Part shown: positions 30,866-56,379 of the stretch, piece after piece
How the letters are laid out: each line of letters opens with the position of its first letter
Numbering within the stretch: position 1 is the stretch's first letter
Assembly: GCF_023015615.1 (NCBI RefSeq)
Contig: NZ_JALKAJ010000002.1
Span: 1,130,501 to 1,194,500 of the forward strand
Source: Qipengyuania sp. S6317L1
GTDB taxonomy: Bacteria; Pseudomonadota; Alphaproteobacteria; Sphingomonadales; Sphingomonadaceae
DNA: 64,000 nucleotides
Reading direction: 5' to 3'
Notes under the pieces: generated by a model
Database searches by the model: none
Seen by the model: the letters and a program-made list of their open reading frames with translations, nothing else
What the model was told of the DNA's origin: nothing
Program-made: the position numbers and the translations under genes

Positions 30866-31327
30866 ATGTTCGAAAAGGCCGACCCATCTGCATTTGCCAA
30901 GGCGCATCATGACGCTTCTTCCGAAGTGGATGATGTGGACCTGCATGTGTGCGCTGACGATGTTGTGGGCGACGTTGCCCAAGCCCAACCCTTGCGCTCG
31001 ATCGAATGGAGCGAACTTGCCGCGAAATTCAACGCCGCGCGCGATTTAAGGGTGCTTTTGCGCAAGGATACAAATGCCAAGCTCGGCATTGGTTCCGGCG
31101 CAGGTGTTGCCGATGGCGACGTCGACTTTGCCACGGCTGCTGCGAGCTTTTTTCGAGCAAATGAAGAAGACGAACGGGCCGTTAACCAAAAGGGTTTAGA
31201 GCACCGAAAAACATCATCTGGCATGTATCCAGATGTAACAGGCGACCCGAGTGAAAAATTCCCCGAGCAGAGCCAGCCCCTACAGGCTCATGCAAACCGG
31301 GCGAAGCGAGAGACAAGTAATGATTGA
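30866..31327 (+). CDS. Conserved-looking unknown protein coupled to sciP
   Basis: 153 residues, soluble, with no signal or membrane segment. The centre LRSIEWSELAAKFNAARDLR looks like an amphipathic helical region, followed by a small Gly/Ala segment and a charged, probably disordered C-terminus. The last eight bases overlap the sciP start, so both are likely translated together. I do not recognise a named domain. The context suggests a helper of, or partner in, SciP-linked cell-cycle or motility control; this is inference. Confidence 0.7.
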   Translation: MFEKADPSAFAKAHHDASSEVDDVDLHVCADDVVGDVAQAQPLRSIEWSELAAKFNAARDLRVLLRKDTNAKLGIGSGAGVADGDVDFATAAASFFRANEEDERAVNQKGLEHRKTSSGMYPDVTGDPSEKFPEQSQPLQAHANRAKRETSND

Positions 31328-31619
31328 GAACCAGGATATCCGTCCAGCACAAGTGATTGGCCCACTCGGCGAGCCGTTGACCTTGGACGATCTGCCTTCG
31401 CCGTCCACCAAACGGTGGGTTGTGCGTCGCAAGGCAGAAGTCGTTGCCGCTGTGAATGGCGGCCTGCTGACAATCGACGAAGTGCTCGAACGCTATTCTC
31501 TCACTCTGGAAGAATTCGCTTCATGGCAGCGCGCGGTAGATCGTTCTGGCATGCAGGGCCTTCGCGTGACGCGCATTCAGCATTACCGCGACCTCTATGA
31601 GCGCCAGTTGAAATACTAA
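31320..31619 (+). CDS. sciP: SciP, CtrA inhibitor (DUF1153)
   Basis: 99 residues from the ATG at 31320. The core TKRWVVRRKAEVVAAVNGGL, LTIDEVLERYSLTLEEFASW is the DUF1153 helix-turn-helix. In Caulobacter SciP binds DNA and CtrA and blocks CtrA-driven transcription in G1. Its start overlaps the preceding unknown gene. No flagellar genes are adjacent in this window. Confidence 0.93.
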   Translation: MIENQDIRPAQVIGPLGEPLTLDDLPSPSTKRWVVRRKAEVVAAVNGGLLTIDEVLERYSLTLEEFASWQRAVDRSGMQGLRVTRIQHYRDLYERQLKY

Positions 31620-31773: not shown

Positions 31774-32043
31774 ATGGGTTGGATTATTGCACTTATCGTT
31801 GGCGGTGTTGCTGGCTGGTTGGCCAGCATGGTGATGAACCGGGATGCCTCAATGGGTATTTTCTGGAATATCGTCGTGGGCTGTATCGGTTCGGTCATCG
31901 GCAACATGATTGTCGGGCCGCTGCTCGGTATCACCGGAAGCGTTCAGGAGTTCTCGATTATCGGGCTTGTCGTAGCGGTTGTCGGCGCTGTCGTACTGCT
32001 TGGCATTTTGAACCTGATCCAGCGCGGACGCGTTCAGGGCTAA
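31774..32043 (+). CDS. GlsB/YeaQ/YmgE-family stress membrane protein
   Basis: 89 residues, three glycine-rich hydrophobic helices (WIIALIVGGVAGWLASMVM, IFWNIVVGCIGSVIGNMIV, FSIIGLVVAVVGAVVLLGIL). AAGGAG seven bases before the ATG predicts strong translation. Family members are induced by general stress. Single gene with its own terminator. Confidence 0.9.
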   Translation: MGWIIALIVGGVAGWLASMVMNRDASMGIFWNIVVGCIGSVIGNMIVGPLLGITGSVQEFSIIGLVVAVVGAVVLLGILNLIQRGRVQG

Positions 32044-32095
32044 ACCCCGAAAGAGGGCGGCAAGTTACGAACGCTTGCCACTACAGAGATTTAAA

Positions 32096-32128
32096 GGCGA
32101 CGCAGGAGCAGATCCGGCGTCGCCTTTT
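32096..32128 (+). terminator. Intrinsic terminator of the GlsB/YeaQ gene
   Basis: A perfect eight-pair stem GGCGACGC/GCGTCGCC with a 13-base loop is followed by TTTT. Confidence 0.88.
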
Positions 32129-32239
32129 GCTTGGGCAAAGCGGTGTTGCGCAAAAGCGTCGTGCGAACGTCCCTCGTCTAGGCTCAAAGTCACCCGTCGA
32201 GGGGCGCATTGCCCTTTGCGGGCCTTTGATTATCAGGGA

Positions 32240-32268
32240 TTGCGAAAGGTGACTTATCCCTGTAATAC
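32240..32268 (+). promoter_or_regulatory. Promoter of the RND efflux operon with a possible operator
   Basis: TTGCGA and TAATAC are separated by exactly 17 bases, a good sigma-70-like match. Between them lies GGTGACTT. Its perfect inverse AAGTCACC occurs at 32187-32194, and GGTCACC at 32311-32317, so three half-sites surround the start region. They could bind a repressor; none is encoded next door. Confidence 0.6.
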
Positions 32269-32297
32269 ACTGTGCGTTTACTGCGGGAGGTGTTTCA

Positions 32298-32339
32298 ATG
32301 GGGGGCACCAGGTCACCGCTTAGAAGGCAAATGGCATGA
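32298..32339 (+). CDS. Leader mini-ORF (13 codons) overlapping the efflux adaptor start
   Basis: GGGAGG seven bases before the ATG is a better ribosome site than that of most genes here. The peptide MGGTRSPLRRQMA ends in TGA, which overlaps the adaptor ATG (ATGA). The predicted transcript starts about 25 bases upstream. Such an arrangement couples adaptor translation to that of the leader. Confidence 0.55.
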   Translation: MGGTRSPLRRQMA

Positions 32340-33529
32340 ATTACTCGACCACCATCACAGCCGAAGCGCAGGATGATATCCCTGCTGACGCGCTGGAAAG
32401 GTATCAGGAAAAACAAGGCTCCAGCGCCATGCGCAAGCTGCTTATCGCAGGTGGCATTCTGCTGGCTTTGCTCTTGGCACTGGGTGCTTATTTCGCGCTT
32501 GCAGGTGGTGAACCGGTAGGCGCAGGCGATGACAACGGGCAGGCACCGGTCGTCACGGTCATTGCTCCGGGTAAAACCACGGTAAGCGGCAGTATCGTTG
32601 CGCCCGGCACAATCGCCGCGCGTCGTCCGATGCCCGTGGGCGTGGTGGGCGAGGGCGGACAGGTCGTGTCGGTTCGCGTCGATGCAGGCGACTGGGTGCG
32701 TCAGGGCGAGGTGCTCGCCGTGATCGACCGCTCGGTCCAAACACAGCAAGCCGCCGCTCAGGAAGCGCAGGTCGCCGTTGCCCAAGCCGATGCCGAACTG
32801 GCGCAATCCAATCTCGACCGCGCGCTGCAATTGGTGGAGCGCGGATTTATCTCCAAGGCAGAGATCGACCGTCTCACCGCAACGCGCGATTCCGCCGTTG
32901 CCCGAATCAAGGTTGCCCGCGCCCAACTCGCAGAGCTTCGCGCACGCAACGCCCGTCTGAACATCGTTGCACCAGCTTCAGGCTATGTTCTCGAACGCGC
33001 CGTTGAACCGGGTCAGACCGTTGGCGGTGGCTCTGGCGCCTTGTTCACAATCGCACGCGGCGGCGAATTTGAAATGCTCGCCGACCTCAGCGAGCCGCAG
33101 CTTGCCAGCCTTTCGGTGGGCGTCTCTGCAAGCGTTGTGCCGGCAGGTTCGGAAAAATCCTTCAGCGGCCAGGTGTGGCAGATTTCTCCCATCGTGGACG
33201 AGCGCACCCGGCAAGGGGCCGCGCGCATCGCGCTGTCATATCAGCCTGAACTTCGCCCCGGCGGTTTTGCAACGGCCACCATCGACAGCGGGTCGATCAC
33301 GGCAACCGTTCTTCCTGAAAGCGCGGTTCTTGCCGATGGCGAGGGCAGCTATGTCTATGTCGTCAACGACGATAACAAAGCGACGCGCGTGGCGGTCAAG
33401 ACCGGCATCGTCACTCCTGATGGCATCGCCATTACCGAAGGGCTGACCGGCGATGAAGCCATTGTGCTGCGCGCAGGCGGCTTCCTCAATCCCGGCGAAA
33501 CCGTGAGCCCGAGGCGTGAAGACAACTGA
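32336..33529 (+). CDS. RND efflux periplasmic adaptor (membrane fusion protein)
   Basis: 397 residues. A cytoplasmic N-terminus (about 1-32) and one transmembrane helix (LLIAGGILLALLLALGAYFAL) precede a barrel-sandwich/lipoyl region (GDWVRQGEVLAVID ... NIVAPASGYVLERAVEPGQTV) and a helical hairpin rich in Ala/Gln. It links an inner-membrane RND pump to an outer-membrane channel. The pump gene follows after 111 bases; no TolC-like gene is adjacent, so an unlinked channel must serve. Confidence 0.93.
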   Translation: MNYSTTITAEAQDDIPADALERYQEKQGSSAMRKLLIAGGILLALLLALGAYFALAGGEPVGAGDDNGQAPVVTVIAPGKTTVSGSIVAPGTIAARRPMPVGVVGEGGQVVSVRVDAGDWVRQGEVLAVIDRSVQTQQAAAQEAQVAVAQADAELAQSNLDRALQLVERGFISKAEIDRLTATRDSAVARIKVARAQLAELRARNARLNIVAPASGYVLERAVEPGQTVGGGSGALFTIARGGEFEMLADLSEPQLASLSVGVSASVVPAGSEKSFSGQVWQISPIVDERTRQGAARIALSYQPELRPGGFATATIDSGSITATVLPESAVLADGEGSYVYVVNDDNKATRVAVKTGIVTPDGIAITEGLTGDEAIVLRAGGFLNPGETVSPRREDN

Positions 33530-33640: not shown

Positions 33641-36600
33641 ATGAACTTCCGCAATCTTTCAGCTTGGTCGATCCGGAACCCGGTTATTCCGCTGGTTCTG
33701 TTCACCGCCCTGTTGTTTGCCGGATTGGTGAGCTTCCGGGCGATGGATATCACCAACAACCCGGACATCGAGTTCCCTGCGGTCAATGTGACGATCTCGC
33801 AGCCTGGTGCTGCACCAAGCGAGATCGAGAACCAGATCACCCAGCAGGTCGAAAGCGCTGTGCGCTCGATCAACGGGGTGAAACAGATTTCATCGACCGC
33901 CAGCGAAGGTTCATCGCGCACCTTTGTCGAATTTGAACTTGGCATCGATCCCAACGTGGTGGTCTCCGAGGTCAAGAACGCGGTCGACCGCGTCCGCGGA
34001 AGCCTGCCCGACGGGATTCAGGAACCGCGCGTCAACAAGGTCGAGGCGGCTGGCGGCTTCCTTGGCATTTACGCGGTGCAAGCCGATGACATGACCATCG
34101 AACAGCTCTCCTGGTTTATTGATGACACCGTGGCCAAACGGCTTCTGGATATTCCCGGCATGGCCGAGGCTGGCCGTTTTGGCGGGGTAGATCGCGCGAT
34201 TGAGGTGATCCTTGATCCTGTAAAAATGCAGGCCTTCGGCGTCACCGCATCACAGATTAACAATGCCCTTCGTTCAACCAATGTCGATGCGGCTGGCGGC
34301 CTTGCCGAGGTCGGCGGCACGCGCCAGTCCTTGCGGGTGCTGGGTAATAACGACACCGCCTATGAGCTTTCCCAGCGCCAGATCCAACTGGGCGGGGGCC
34401 GCACCATCCGCCTTGCCGATGTGGCAACGGTGCGTGACGGCTACACCGAGCGGCAATCGATCAGCGAAGTCGGCGACAAGGAGGTCGTCAATTTCTACAT
34501 GAGCCGTGCCAAAGGCGCCTCGGACGTGACAGTGTTCGAAGAAGCGCAGGCCATGATCGAGGAGATCCAGGCCGAGAACCCCGACCTGAAATTCATCCAG
34601 CTGTTCAACACCGTTAAATACACCAAGAGCCAGTATAACAGCTCGATGCAGGCCCTCATCGAGGGCGCGGTGCTTGCTGTGATCGTGGTGTTCTTCTTCC
34701 TGCGCGATTGGCGCGCCACCTTCATCAGCGCGGTTGCGATCCCGCTGTCCGCGATCCCGACCTTCTTTTTCATGGACCTCCTCGGGTTCAACCTGAACTT
34801 CCTGTCTCTATTGGCATTGGGCCTTGTGGCGGGGGTTCTGGTCGATGACGCCATTGTGGAGATCGAGAATATCGTGCGCCATATGCGCATGGGCAAAACC
34901 GCCTATCAGGCGAGTATTGATGCCGCCGACGAGATCGGTCTGCCGGTGGTTGCGACCAGCTTCTGTATCGTTGCGGTGTTCCTGCCTGTGGGCCTGATGC
35001 CGGGCATTTCGGGCCAGTTTTTCCAGAACTTTGCCATCACCGTCGTGATTGCGGTGCTGATGAGTCTGGCTGTGGCGCGGATGGTGACGCCATTGATGGC
35101 GGCTTATTTCCTCTCTGCCAAAGGCCATGCCGAACACGGCGAAGGCAAGCTCATGGACCGTTATCTGCGCGTCCTTGAATGGACCCTCGACACCAGCACC
35201 ATGCACAAATTGCGCGAAGGGATCGAGCGCCCCCGCTCGCAGGCCCTCTATGTCGTCGGTCTGCTTCTTGCCTCCGTCTTCCTCCTCGCTGTTCCCGCAA
35301 TTGTCGTATTCCAGCTCTGGGGTCTGGTCGGTGAGGTCGTGCTGCACGATAACGTCGCAAGCCTCGTGTCGGATGACCAGTTCGGCTTCCTTTACAAGCT
35401 GGTCTCGAAAACCTTCGAATTAGCGCAACTTCTGGCGGTCGTCCTTGTGGCCGGGGTTGCGACATGGCTCGCGCTCAAACTGCTTGAGTTTTTTGCCCGC
35501 TCGGCGTCACGCTTCGGTCAATTCATGCGCTACATGACCGCGCGTTTCCACGATCACCGGGTGTGGATGCTTTCCATCGGCTGGATGTCGCTTTTGGTGA
35601 CGATTGTGCTGATCGGCACGGTTCCGGGGCAGTTCCAGCCCGATATTGACGATTCCAACGCGGAAATCGCGATCGAGATGGTGCCGGGCACCACCCTCGA
35701 GGGGACCAAGCGCGTCGTCGATCAGGTCAACGACATCCTCATGCAGGAGCAGGAGGTTCTGCGCACGCTTGAGCGTATCCGTGTGGGTGAGGCGACGATC
35801 TACGTTACCTTGAAAGAGGACCGTGAACGCACCTCGATTGCATTCCAGCGTGAGATGGCGCCTGTCCTGAACAAAGTGGCCGATGCCCGCGTTCGCTTTG
35901 TCGCGGAGAACTTCGGCGGGGCGGGCTCTGGCCGCGATTTCACCGTGATGCTCGCAGGCTCCGACCCCGAGCTTCTGAACGAAACCGCGACCCAGGTGAT
36001 CGAGGAGATGAAAACCCTCGACACGATCATCGCCCCGCGCATCGGAGCGGATTTGCGCCGCCCCGAGATCATCATCACGCCCAATGAAAAGCTCGCGGCC
36101 GAGCTTGGCGTCTCAACGCTTTCGTTGAGCCAGGCAATCCGTATCGCCACCTTGGGCGAGATCGAACAGAACGCTGCCAAGTTCTCGCTTTCGGACCGCC
36201 AGATCCCGATCATGGTCAAGCTGGGCGATGATGCGCGCGGCAATCTGACCACGATTGAGAACCTGCCGGTGCAGACCGTCGATGGCGGCACAGTCCCGCT
36301 TTCGCGCGTGGCAACAATCGAGTTTGGCTCCGGCCCGACAACGATCCAGCGGTACAACCAGAACCGGCGCGTGTTCATCGGCGCCGACCTTGCAAGCGGC
36401 GTCTTGCGGGGCAATGCGCAAGAGCAGATTGAAGCTCTGCCGACCCTGCAAAACCTGCCCCAGGGCGTGATCCGCGATGCCGTGGGTCAGGACGAAATCC
36501 AGCAGGAACTGATGGGCAGCCTTTCGGTGGCCATCATCTCCGGCGTGATGCTGGTGTTTGCCTGCCTCGTCCTTCTCTACAAGCGCTTGATGAGCCCGCT

Positions 36601-37120
36601 GGTCAATATGACCTCGCTTGCGCTCGCACCCCTGGGCGGGATCATGCTGATCTGGCTGGTCGGACTGCCCCAGTCCATGCCGGTCTATATCGGCATGCTG
36701 CTGCTGCTTGGCATTGTATCCAAGAACTCGATCCTCCTCATCGACTTTGCGATTGAGGAAATGGAGAAGGGCACCGAAAAGCTGAGCGCGATTATCGATG
36801 CAGGTCACAAGCGTGCACAGCCAATCGTCATGACCACGGTGGCGATGACCGCAGGCATGGTGCCGGTCTCCGTCTCGCTTACCGGCGATGGTGCCTGGCG
36901 TCAGCCGATGGGCATTGTCGTGATTGGGGGGCTGATCCTGTCGACGCTGCTCACGCTGCTGATCGTGCCTGCAGGCTTCAGCCTTGCTGATGGCGTCGAG
37001 AAGCGCGTCGGCCCGTGGCTGCGCAAGACCTTGCTCACTTACAAGCCGGGCGATGACACAAAGCCTGTCACCGCGCCTTCGGGCTCTGGCAATGGACCAG
37101 CTGGTGAACCTGCCGAATAA
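33641..37120 (+). CDS. RND multidrug efflux pump subunit (HAE1/AcrB-like), enlarged
   Basis: 1159 residues against the usual 1030-1050. Standard parts are visible: the first helix [20 protein letters not shown], two porter domains, [20 protein letters not shown] and the proton-relay helix with [18 protein letters not shown] (two Asp). Between the sixth and seventh main helices (about 490-640) an insertion of roughly 110 residues carries two additional hydrophobic segments. The C-terminus ends in a short Gly/Pro-rich tail. Exports lipophilic compounds with proton drive; substrate unknown. Confidence 0.93.
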
Positions 37121-37160: not shown

Positions 37161-38465
37161 ATGGCAAGCAGCGCACAATCACCCTCATATGCCTTTGGCG
37201 GAGAGCCGCTGACCCCCGACCGCGCCCGGCGTATGCGCTGGACCGCGACCGGCCTGTTGTTTGCGATGGCGGTGATCTTCTTCACCACCCACGGCCTCGT
37301 GCCGGCGCATCCGGCCTGGGGTTATGTCAACGCCTTTGCCGAAGCGGCCATGGTGGGCGGGCTTGCCGACTGGTTCGCTGTCACCGCGCTGTTTCGCCAC
37401 CCTCTAGGGCTTCCCATACCCCACACCGCTATCGTCCCGTCCAACAAGGACCGGATTGCCGATACGATGGGGCAATTCCTGCGCGAGAATTTCCTGACTC
37501 CGGCAGTCGTCGCGCGCCGGATGCGAAATATGAATATCGCGCGGGCTGTTGGCGACTTCCTCGTCGCCGATCCCAAGGAAGAGCAAGAAGGTGACGACGG
37601 CGATCAACGCTCGCGCGTCATGGGCGGCGCTGCCGAAATGCTCGCCGAAATCCTCGAATCGCTCGATCCGGACCGTCTGGGCAATCAAGTGCGCGCAGGG
37701 CTCGGCAACCAGCTTACCAAGATCGACGTTTCGCCGCTCGCTGGCCGAATGCTCGAAAACACCATGGTCGACGGGCGCCACCTGCCTCTCATCAATGGCT
37801 TTATCCGCTGGGCAGGGCTGACGCTTGAAGACAATGAAGAAACGATACGCCAGATCATTCACGAGCGGGTGAACGGCGTCTTGCGCTGGGCGGGCCTTGA
37901 TAAGACCATCTCGTCCAACGTGCTCGACGGCCTTTACAAATTGCTCGCCGAAGTGCTGGTCGACCCCGAGCACCCGCTACGCGGCAAGGTGGAAGAAGGC
38001 CTTCGCGAGCTTGCGATTGATCTGCAAAACAACCCCGAGACAAGAGCCCGCGTTGAGGAGATGAAGCGCGAGATACTTGAAAACCCTGCCGTTGCCGAAT
38101 GGTGGATGGGGGTGTGGGAGCGTATCCGGATGTCGCTGATCCGGCGCGCGCGCGATCCCAATAGCGAACTGGGCTCTGATCTGCGCACAGGGCTTGCCGA
38201 TCTTGGCGAAGCGCTCAAGAAAGACGAGCGTTTGCAGACCCAGATCAACCGGTTCGCAAGGCGCACCGCCTCCGGAATTGCAACACGCTATGGCAGTGAG
38301 ATTGTGACGCTGGTTTCTGAAACGGTGAAACGCTGGGATGCGACCACGATCACGGGCCGGATCGAAACCGCGGTTGGCCGCGATTTGCAGTTCATCAGGA
38401 TTAACGGGACGCTTGTTGGCGGGCTCGTCGGCATGACGCTGCACTTCATTGTGAGCTTTCTCTAG
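37161..38465 (+). CDS. DUF445 membrane-anchored protein
   Basis: 434 residues. TM helix near residue 30 (GLLFAMAVIFFTTHGLVPAH), then the DUF445 block AAMVGGLADWFAVTALFRHPLGLPIP and ...IVPSNKDRIADTMGQFL, a long helical middle and a final hydrophobic helix (LVGGLVGMTLHFIVSFL). The family is found widely in bacteria with unknown function. Starts 40 bases after the pump gene, so probably the last gene of the efflux operon. Its stop overlaps that of the opposing 51-codon ORF in a CTAG palindrome. Confidence 0.9.
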   Translation: MASSAQSPSYAFGGEPLTPDRARRMRWTATGLLFAMAVIFFTTHGLVPAHPAWGYVNAFAEAAMVGGLADWFAVTALFRHPLGLPIPHTAIVPSNKDRIADTMGQFLRENFLTPAVVARRMRNMNIARAVGDFLVADPKEEQEGDDGDQRSRVMGGAAEMLAEILESLDPDRLGNQVRAGLGNQLTKIDVSPLAGRMLENTMVDGRHLPLINGFIRWAGLTLEDNEETIRQIIHERVNGVLRWAGLDKTISSNVLDGLYKLLAEVLVDPEHPLRGKVEEGLRELAIDLQNNPETRARVEEMKREILENPAVAEWWMGVWERIRMSLIRRARDPNSELGSDLRTGLADLGEALKKDERLQTQINRFARRTASGIATRYGSEIVTLVSETVKRWDATTITGRIETAVGRDLQFIRINGTLVGGLVGMTLHFIVSFL

Positions 38466-55512: not shown

Positions 55513-55533
55513 ATGACCGAAAACACATTATGA
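55513..55533 (+). CDS. Leader mini-ORF (six codons) before the GntR gene
   Basis: ATG-ACC-GAA-AAC-ACA-TTA-TGA encodes MTENTL. GAGG lies six bases before its ATG, while the GntR ATG itself has no ribosome site. The TGA overlaps the GntR ATG (ATGA), so ribosomes probably reinitiate there. Confidence 0.45.
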   Translation: MTENTL

Positions 55534-55868
55534 CCCAGGCCCGACCCGTCTATCTCAAACTGCGCGACCAGATCGCGGCGGCCATCATTCAGGGCGATTA
55601 TGCCGAGGGTGCGATGCTGCCTTCCGTGCGCGCGCTTGCAGCAGAAGAAGGCGCAAATCCGCTTACGGTGGCAAAAGCATATCAGCAGTTTCAAAATGAT
55701 GGCCTCGTCGAGGTTCAGCGCGGGGTTGGCATGTATGTCGTGAAAGGCGCTGCCGATGCCTTGCGCAAACGCGAACGCGAGCAGTTTTTGGCTGAAGAAT
55801 GGCCCGAGATACGCAAACGTATGAAGCGGCTGGGGATCGACCTTGCCGACCTCGTGGCGCAAAGCTGA
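55530..55868 (+). CDS. GntR-family regulator, YtrA-like (DNA-binding domain only)
   Basis: 112 residues: winged helix with LRDQIAAAIIQGDYAEGAML, PSVRALAAEEGANPLTVAKA, YQQFQNDGLVEVQRGVGMYV, followed by a short basic helix and no effector domain. YtrA types often control nearby transporters. It is divergent from the POT transporter gene, which may be its target; that is inference. Confidence 0.88.
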   Translation: MTQARPVYLKLRDQIAAAIIQGDYAEGAMLPSVRALAAEEGANPLTVAKAYQQFQNDGLVEVQRGVGMYVVKGAADALRKREREQFLAEEWPEIRKRMKRLGIDLADLVAQS

Positions 55869-56097: not shown

Positions 56098-56379
56098 ATG
56101 ATACGATCCGAACTGCTCAATGAACTCCACAAGGACAACCCTGATCTTCGCGCCGACGAGATTGAGCAGGTTGTTGACATCTTCTTTGACGAAATTACGC
56201 AGCGGCTGGCCGAAGGGGGCCGGGTTGAACTGCGCGGTTTTGGCGCGTTTTCCACCCGCGAACGCGAAGCGCGCGTGGGCCGCAACCCGCGCACCGGCGA
56301 ACAGGTTGAAGTGCCGGCAAAGCGCGTTCCCTATTTCAAGGCAGGTAAAGAGATCAAGGCGCGCCTCAACGAGGGGTGA
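56098..56379 (+). CDS. ihfB: Integration host factor beta subunit
   Basis: 93 residues of the HU/IHF fold: MIRSELLNELHKDNPDL, VDIFFDEITQRLAEGGRVEL and the arm GRNPRTGEQVEVPAKRVPYF. The sequence is beta- rather than alpha-like. Bends DNA as a heterodimer with IhfA. GGAGG lies five to nine bases before the ATG. Confidence 0.93.
   Translation: MIRSELLNELHKDNPDLRADEIEQVVDIFFDEITQRLAEGGRVELRGFGAFSTREREARVGRNPRTGEQVEVPAKRVPYFKAGKEIKARLNEG

Follow-up and report, generated by a model that had tools for sequence, protein, structure and literature searches.

We propose, with good confidence, that the RND efflux operon of the window (the whole stretch of 64,000 nucleotides from Qipengyuania sp. S6317L1 analysed here) is repressed by an orphan GntR regulator of the YtrA subfamily, through a predicted operator at 32249-32270 that lies on the promoter P2 of the mfp-RND-DUF445 genes. 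The form of this operator, the association of the same motif with ytrA across the order and the size of the protein together designate the orphan YtrA as its likely reader.

The pump operon and its neighbourhood

The source genome of the window comprises 3.14 Mb in 5 contigs. The operon described as an efflux operon by the first-pass annotation is indeed one, with an adaptor and an RND permease gene that are adjacent: the RND periplasmic adaptor (mfp) is encoded at 32336-33529 on the + strand (TIGR01730, 194.1 bits for a cut-off of 94.9; PF16576) and the RND inner-membrane permease at 33641-37120 on the same strand (PF00873, 706.9 bits; its NCBIfam matches are all below their own cut-offs). 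A gene encoding a DUF445 protein (37161-38465, + strand; PF04286) follows the permease after a gap of 40 nt and probably belongs to the operon. The ribosome site of the adaptor gene, AGAAGG at 32322-32327 (+ strand), stands 8 nt 5' of the ATG at 32336 and is kept in Erythrobacter longus (L122). Among the named records found, the nearest adaptor genes are those of Erythrobacter, namely the uncultured isolate 2-490-G (86%) and E. longus (82%).

No regulator gene lies directly beside the pump operon. Its upstream neighbour encodes a small transglycosylase-associated, GlsB-like protein (31774-32043, + strand; PF04226, 42.1 bits), and two genes 5' of the pump is found a DUF1153 protein (31323-31619; PF06627), which we take to be SciP-like. 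A hairpin with arms of 15 nt that are 93% complementary, followed by TTTTGC (32093-32127, + strand), is likely the transcript end of the upstream gene; it is not among the terminators called by the terminator scan.

An inverted repeat overlapping the promoter P2

The promoter-like element P2 (32240-32268, + strand) is formed by TTGCGA at 32240-32245 and TAATAC at 32263-32268, with a spacing of 17 nt. It had been presented as a good promoter, a description that does not hold by consensus, as the promoter scan does not report it, but that holds by conservation (35/35 same-genus loci). As also described, GGTGACTT is located between the two boxes, at 32248-32255. It belongs, as one arm, to an inverted repeat of 22 bp missed at that stage, GTGACTTA-N6-TAATACAC (32249-32270, no strand assigned), which covers the spacer and the -10 box of P2 and has the GTG-N16-CAC form. 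Within this predicted YtrA operator, GTG and TTA fall inside the spacer and CAC lies 3' of the -10 box, positions that a core promoter does not require. At up to three mismatches the repeat has 5 matches in the window for 8.3 expected, one of them exact; since the matches are fewer than expected, only the exact one counts. In the whole genome of the strain, the operator in its GTGNNTTAN6TAANNCAC form matches exactly at this one place only.

The conservation of the repeat was studied in two sets of loci. The genus set was obtained by searching 37 genomes and contains 35 loci, including that of the window, after removal of one genome with no adaptor (G008) and one with a partial adaptor (G033); G008 possesses ytrA and lacks both the adaptor gene and the palindrome. 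The named set contains 54 of the 60 loci found, five having been dropped for their identity of 24-28% (L177-L181) and one as too short (L174), and for partial matches the gene start was extrapolated. Combined, the two sets give 89 upstream regions, 84 of which are distinct over 150 nt, and at least 4 named loci are from genomes already in the genus set.

All 35 genus loci have the promoter TTG..GTGNSTTA-N6-TAAYACAC. Its spacing is fixed in 34 of the 35 under the strict rule, the distance being 14 nt from GTG to TAA and 23 nt from the start of the -35 box to that of the -10 box, and the element is found in 35/35 under a relaxed rule. GTG-N16-CAC precedes the adaptor in 71/89 upstream regions (66/84 distinct 150-nt regions). 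As a control over the 89 regions, the spacings N12, N13, N15 and N17-N20 occur in 0-2 each and N14 in 26, this last count being due in part to TAACACAC, which holds two CACs. At the genome level, GTGNSTTAN6TAAYACAC is present in 35 of 61 relatives, that is in 35/37 within the genus and in 0/24 outside it (2 matches for the backward control), so that no mfp-type palindrome was found in the 24 other genomes of the order; the looser GTGNNTTAN6TAANNCAC is present in 79/81 same-genus genomes (control, 4).

In the named set, 46/54 loci carry the palindrome with one mismatch or none. The eight loci with two or more are L143, L146, L154, L156, L158, L162, L164 and L173; in L146, L156 and L158 the best match has 5 mismatches, yet ytrA is kept. 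The Sphingomonas-type relatives L166-L171 have CAG as right arm. In L164 (Erythrobacteraceae bacterium CFH 75059), the operator before the adaptor is GTGTTCTA-N6-TAGAACAC, a symmetric change, as if both arms had drifted together. An operator model (R2) used 30 of the 45 distinct sites. In the genome-wide model search the mfp site ranks first, but only at an E-value of 0.1 (150 of 212 candidates scored).

Could this element be nothing else than a strongly conserved promoter, palindromic without any regulator? TAATACAC includes the -10 box, and in distant relatives the outer CAC is less well preserved than the -10. By contrast, the conservation of GTG and TTA in the spacer is, across the genus loci, close to that of the promoter boxes themselves, and near-perfect copies of the palindrome stand at other genes, and we consider this explanation very unlikely.

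The first-pass annotation had instead emphasised related copies of GGTGACTT on both sides of the promoter. The inverse copy does exist, as an exact AAGTCACC at 32187-32194, 61 bases upstream, but the inverse of GGTGACTT is not what is conserved there; the downstream copy is also present, as GGTCACC at 32312-32318, but GTCACC occurs within the 60 nt that precede the adaptor in 4/89 leaders, those of the window, L004, L122 and L142, the last two being the two closest named relatives. The triplet of half-sites 61 and 63 bases apart is not the conserved unit. We also rejected AAGTCACC and GGTGACTT as half-sites of a single factor: the variants GTGAGTTA and GTGCCTTA have no upstream match, and distant members have ATGTCGCT there.

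An orphan regulator of the YtrA subfamily

The candidate regulator is a GntR protein of 112 aa encoded at 55530-55868 on the + strand, 23 kb from the pump operon. It has an N-terminal GntR winged helix (PF00392, 54.5 bits for a cut-off of 27) and matches PDB 3tqn (113 aa) from end to end with an E-value of 7.2e-31; its best YtrA-like match in NCBIfam, PmtR, is nearly end to end and below cut-off (51.8 of 200 bits). PMC4494728 describes the C-terminal domain of the YtrA subfamily as reduced to about 50 aa in two helices, and here some 42 aa follow the winged helix, an agreement in length only. According to the same source, YtrA genes usually share an operon with ABC transporter genes (PMC4494728), a usual and not a strict feature of the subfamily; the next gene after this ytrA encodes an HU/IHF-type protein (56098-56379), and no ABC permease was found in the genome of the strain.

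At an E-value of 0.001, ytrA has a match in 58/61 relatives, although some of the order-level matches are only to other GntR proteins, and in 35/36 of the mfp-bearing genomes tested (36 of 60 loci). The presence or absence of ytrA is consequently uninformative as a discriminating test. The promoter of ytrA itself carries in the genus a decayed CTGTATTATGGCACTG-like site (1-3 mismatches in 29/30 loci), which may be just its -10; in the window, this promoter has no site within 3 mismatches.

ytrA-ABC loci in other families of the order

Orthologous ytrA genes from other families of the order (L098-L115) encode proteins with 44-52% identity to the regulator, and LPSVR, NP-T--KAY and RG-GM are conserved when 30 proteins of the genus are aligned with 19 of the order. 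In all 12 order-level loci whose genes were listed, ytrA is followed by an ABC ATPase-like gene, and in 11 of them a gene of permease size comes next, the remaining one (L111) showing an overlapping reverse ORF at this position. The ATPase of L102 belongs to PF00005 and is the only one confirmed by Pfam; the L102 permease has no Pfam family. Using this permease as query, we obtained matches in 8/8 order-level genomes and in none of 13 same-genus genomes tested.

The 800 nt before the order-level ytrA genes contain the palindrome with at most one mismatch in 13/19 loci (a twentieth, L116, was dropped as its upstream sequence is too short), for 0.03 expected from dinucleotide shuffles. GTGT-N14-ACAC is located upstream of orthologous ytrA in 18/18 loci, L116 and the paralogue L117 being left out, and the other spacings from N8 to N26 occur in 0-3 each. 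These counts are not all independent, some genomes being close relatives (L109 and L110 are of the same genus). Together with the contrast in the permease (8/8 in the order, 0/13 in the genus), the motif upstream of the order-level ytrA genes points to an operator-linked regulator that is without its ABC partner in this lineage, the predicted operator being conserved on the RND promoter.

Another dimeric regulator, of the TetR, MarR or GntR type, might read the palindrome, the resemblance to YtrA sites being a coincidence of form. Binding by the orphan YtrA is deduced from sequence, and of the three GntR proteins above the Pfam cut-off in the genome of the strain two are others. Against this, the same spacing and half-sites stand upstream of orthologous ytrA in 18/18 order-level loci, and the two remaining GntR proteins lie in frames (242 and 247 aa) longer than expected of a YtrA, the protein of 112 aa being the one in a short frame of YtrA size. 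A different reader is therefore improbable in our opinion, and the orphan YtrA is retained.

Other candidate sites of the operator type

Twenty chosen sites were examined among the matches listed. Near-perfect palindromes are found before a gene whose small hydrophobic product (73 aa in L049) falls in no Pfam family, in L045-L049, near 2515-2580, where the ATG abuts the site; this suggests a leaderless transcript under the same regulator. By eye, a MutY-like gene is located near the L045-L049 site. Palindromes were also found before YbjQ genes in L053 (PF01906) and L061 (by eye), beside TelA in L052 (PF05816) and before an adaptor-like gene of genome G094 in L056 (by eye). In the genome of the strain itself, a second and weaker candidate (E-value 1.13) precedes a DUF2807 gene (L183:1499-1520; G000:C3:1120258), approximately 10 kb before the window. 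For several other sites (e.g. L055, L057-L060 and L062) no clear common target emerges, and these may be due to chance.

A second conserved block and a possible upstream promoter

Upstream of P2, a second conserved block, CCTCGTCTAGGCTCAAAGTCACCCGTCGAGGGGCGCATTGC (32172-32212, + strand), has the consensus GTC-N10-GTC-N4-GTCGA-N7-RTTG and contains the upstream copy AAGTCACC. Its model was built on an alignment of 31 of the 35 genus rows, L026, L028, L032 and L036 being excluded as their left part differs, and the block is likely to be the site of a factor. Several known motifs were considered and rejected: those of ChvI, TTGC-N3-GCAA and, in S. meliloti, GCC-N8-GCC (PMC9731502), do not match by eye; and neither, by eye, does that of SpdR, CTGCGAC-N5-GTCGCAG (PMC4830024). 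An ECF-type reading, GGAAC-N16/17-CGTC, can be recognised by eye in several relatives but is absent from the window.

The block leads into a putative upstream promoter, P1, with the boxes TTGCCC-N16-TATCAG (32209-32236, + strand). Behind the TTGCNN of the block, TA occurs at 16-18 nt in 35/35 genus loci and in 31/31 block-bearing named loci, for 0-2 in four other three-base bins; this conserved spacing supports P1, with a predicted start near 32243, and P1 is a probable promoter in addition to P2.

These elements raise the possibility of tandem promoters, in which a second factor at 32172-32212 would activate P1 and YtrA would repress P2 and might also block the transcripts from P1. The chances of such an arrangement appear to us evenly balanced. 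The constant TA spacing and the presence of GTCGA-N7-RTTG in 35/35 genus loci speak for it, whereas the P1 boxes are weak, the block in that form is present in 31/54 named loci and missing from 23/54, and a search of the genome with the block model gives a sole strong match (E-value 5.6e-12, the next at 0.2; 150 of 2946 candidates scored). Tandem promoters would add to repression by the orphan YtrA and do not replace it.

The leader ORF and hairpins

A mini-ORF of 13 codons, MGGTRSPLRRQMA (32298-32339, + strand), with a GGAGG ribosome site at 32286-32290, is present in the window as first described, and the pump had been suggested to be controlled, like drug-resistance genes, by ribosome stalling on this leader peptide and by alternative hairpins. 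The overlap of its stop with the adaptor start at 32336 is real but carries no information, because the adaptor gene begins with ATGA. L005, L009, L027 and L030 likewise have ATG ORFs of at least 13 codons terminated by this ATGA; they lack a Shine-Dalgarno and their peptides are unrelated, which shows that the overlap is automatic.

The leader peptide itself is not conserved: with the Shine-Dalgarno scored by a set pattern, none of the 34 other genus leaders has, behind such a site, an ATG ORF that reaches 10 codons, and in 7/35 there is little or no room for it, the -10 box starting only 20-38 nt before the ATG. Examined by eye, E. longus possesses an ATG that aligns with the window's, from which a 12-codon ORF can be read, with no strong ribosome site and a mostly frame-shifted peptide; in L142, whose adaptor is nearer in identity than that of E. 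longus, this ATG is missing, and the one located a few bases 5' of it opens a frame not closed by ATGA. Mutually exclusive hairpins find little support either. Of the 89 regions, 55 were usable for the test of the arms, and full pairing is possible in 3 of their 23 distinct arm combinations, with no compensating change at the C-to-G site and no covariation seen among these 55 regions. The folds are only slightly better than those of shuffled sequences (z -1.64 and -1.73), an equal or better fold being obtained for 9 and 10 of 200 shuffles.

Neither a conserved leader ORF with its ribosome site nor conserved alternative hairpins, the marks of a drug-inducible attenuator, were thus found, and stalling at this leader is not supported. 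In its favour are the mini-ORF with GGAGG and ATGA overlap in the window, the 12-codon ORF of E. longus and the GTCACC kept before the adaptor in the two closest relatives; against the absence of the leader ORF in the genus and the failure of the arms to pair, we regard this mode of control as extremely unlikely, and MGGTRSPLRRQMA as probably a chance ORF.

A proposed switch and its relation to known systems

According to our model, the mfp-RND-DUF445 operon would be transcribed from P2 and probably also from P1. A dimer of the orphan YtrA (55530-55868) would bind the 22-bp inverted repeat and, in covering the spacer and -10 box of P2, would keep RNA polymerase off, the predicted effect being repression rather than activation. 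The regulator would be released, and the pump made, on an inducing signal; by analogy with the YtrA of Bacillus subtilis, this is probably stress to the envelope or cell wall. In other families of the order the same regulator heads a ytrA-ABC operon preceded by a site of this type; here the ABC permease was not found in the genomes tested, and the site stands before the RND operon, with further copies in single genomes near DUF2807, YbjQ, TelA or small membrane-protein genes. Against this model can be set the distance of 23 kb, the decayed site of ytrA, the genome G008, the eight mismatched loci among 54, the CAG arms, the E-value of 0.1 and the lack of an mfp-type palindrome in the 24 order genomes outside the genus.

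We tentatively suggest, as a scenario to which we give somewhat less than an even chance, that YtrA has been retained in the Erythrobacter lineage, after the loss of its ABC operon, for its operator on the RND pump and a few other envelope genes, forming with a second factor at 32172-32212 a two-input, two-promoter envelope-stress switch. A widespread orphan YtrA with its conserved site on an RND operon would in itself offer a clear example of a repressor that has switched targets, present-day relatives displaying the arrangement before and after. For an RND pump with no adjacent regulator gene, it would supply the name of a regulator, its exact site and a regulon open to testing. As judged from literature listings, our search returned no work on YtrA at an RND pump in sphingomonads.

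In attenuation of the erm type, a short ORF with a ribosome site precedes the resistance gene; a short ORF is likewise found here, but it is not conserved and the alternative hairpins are unsupported. Some RND pumps are under local TetR repressors of the AcrR/MtrR type, with the operator over the pump promoter. The predicted repressor operator on the pump promoter is a shared trait, but the regulator family is different, and here no regulator gene is directly beside the pump.

The YtrA of B. subtilis is, as predicted here, a repressor of the short GntR type with a long inverted repeat, AGTGTA-N13-TACACT. This repeat, for which a 13-bp gap is given in PMC4730234, is one base longer than the one described here. 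PMC8060467 describes the ytr operon (ytrGABCDEF) as repressed by YtrA and induced by cell-wall antibiotics; the B. subtilis regulator controls its own ABC operon, unlike the one studied here, and PMC4494728 states that most YtrA regulons consist of a single operon of ABC transporter genes. The order-level ytrA loci L098-L115 share with our system a related regulator (44-52% identity), with GTGT-N14-ACAC upstream of ytrA; they differ in the ABC genes that follow ytrA (12 listed), whereas no permease was found in the 13 genomes tested from the genus of the window. The closest parallel in operator form is the YtrA-like regulator of Xanthomonas citri, whose operator (Zhou et al. 2017, as quoted in PMC6746942) is GGTG-N16-CACC. 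The sequence at 32249-32270 has the form of a YtrA-type operator, a long palindrome with GT and AC far from the centre in the form GTG-N16-CAC, and as in X. citri this form goes with a GntR protein of the YtrA subfamily; here an orphan regulator would be paired with a conserved site on an RND operon.
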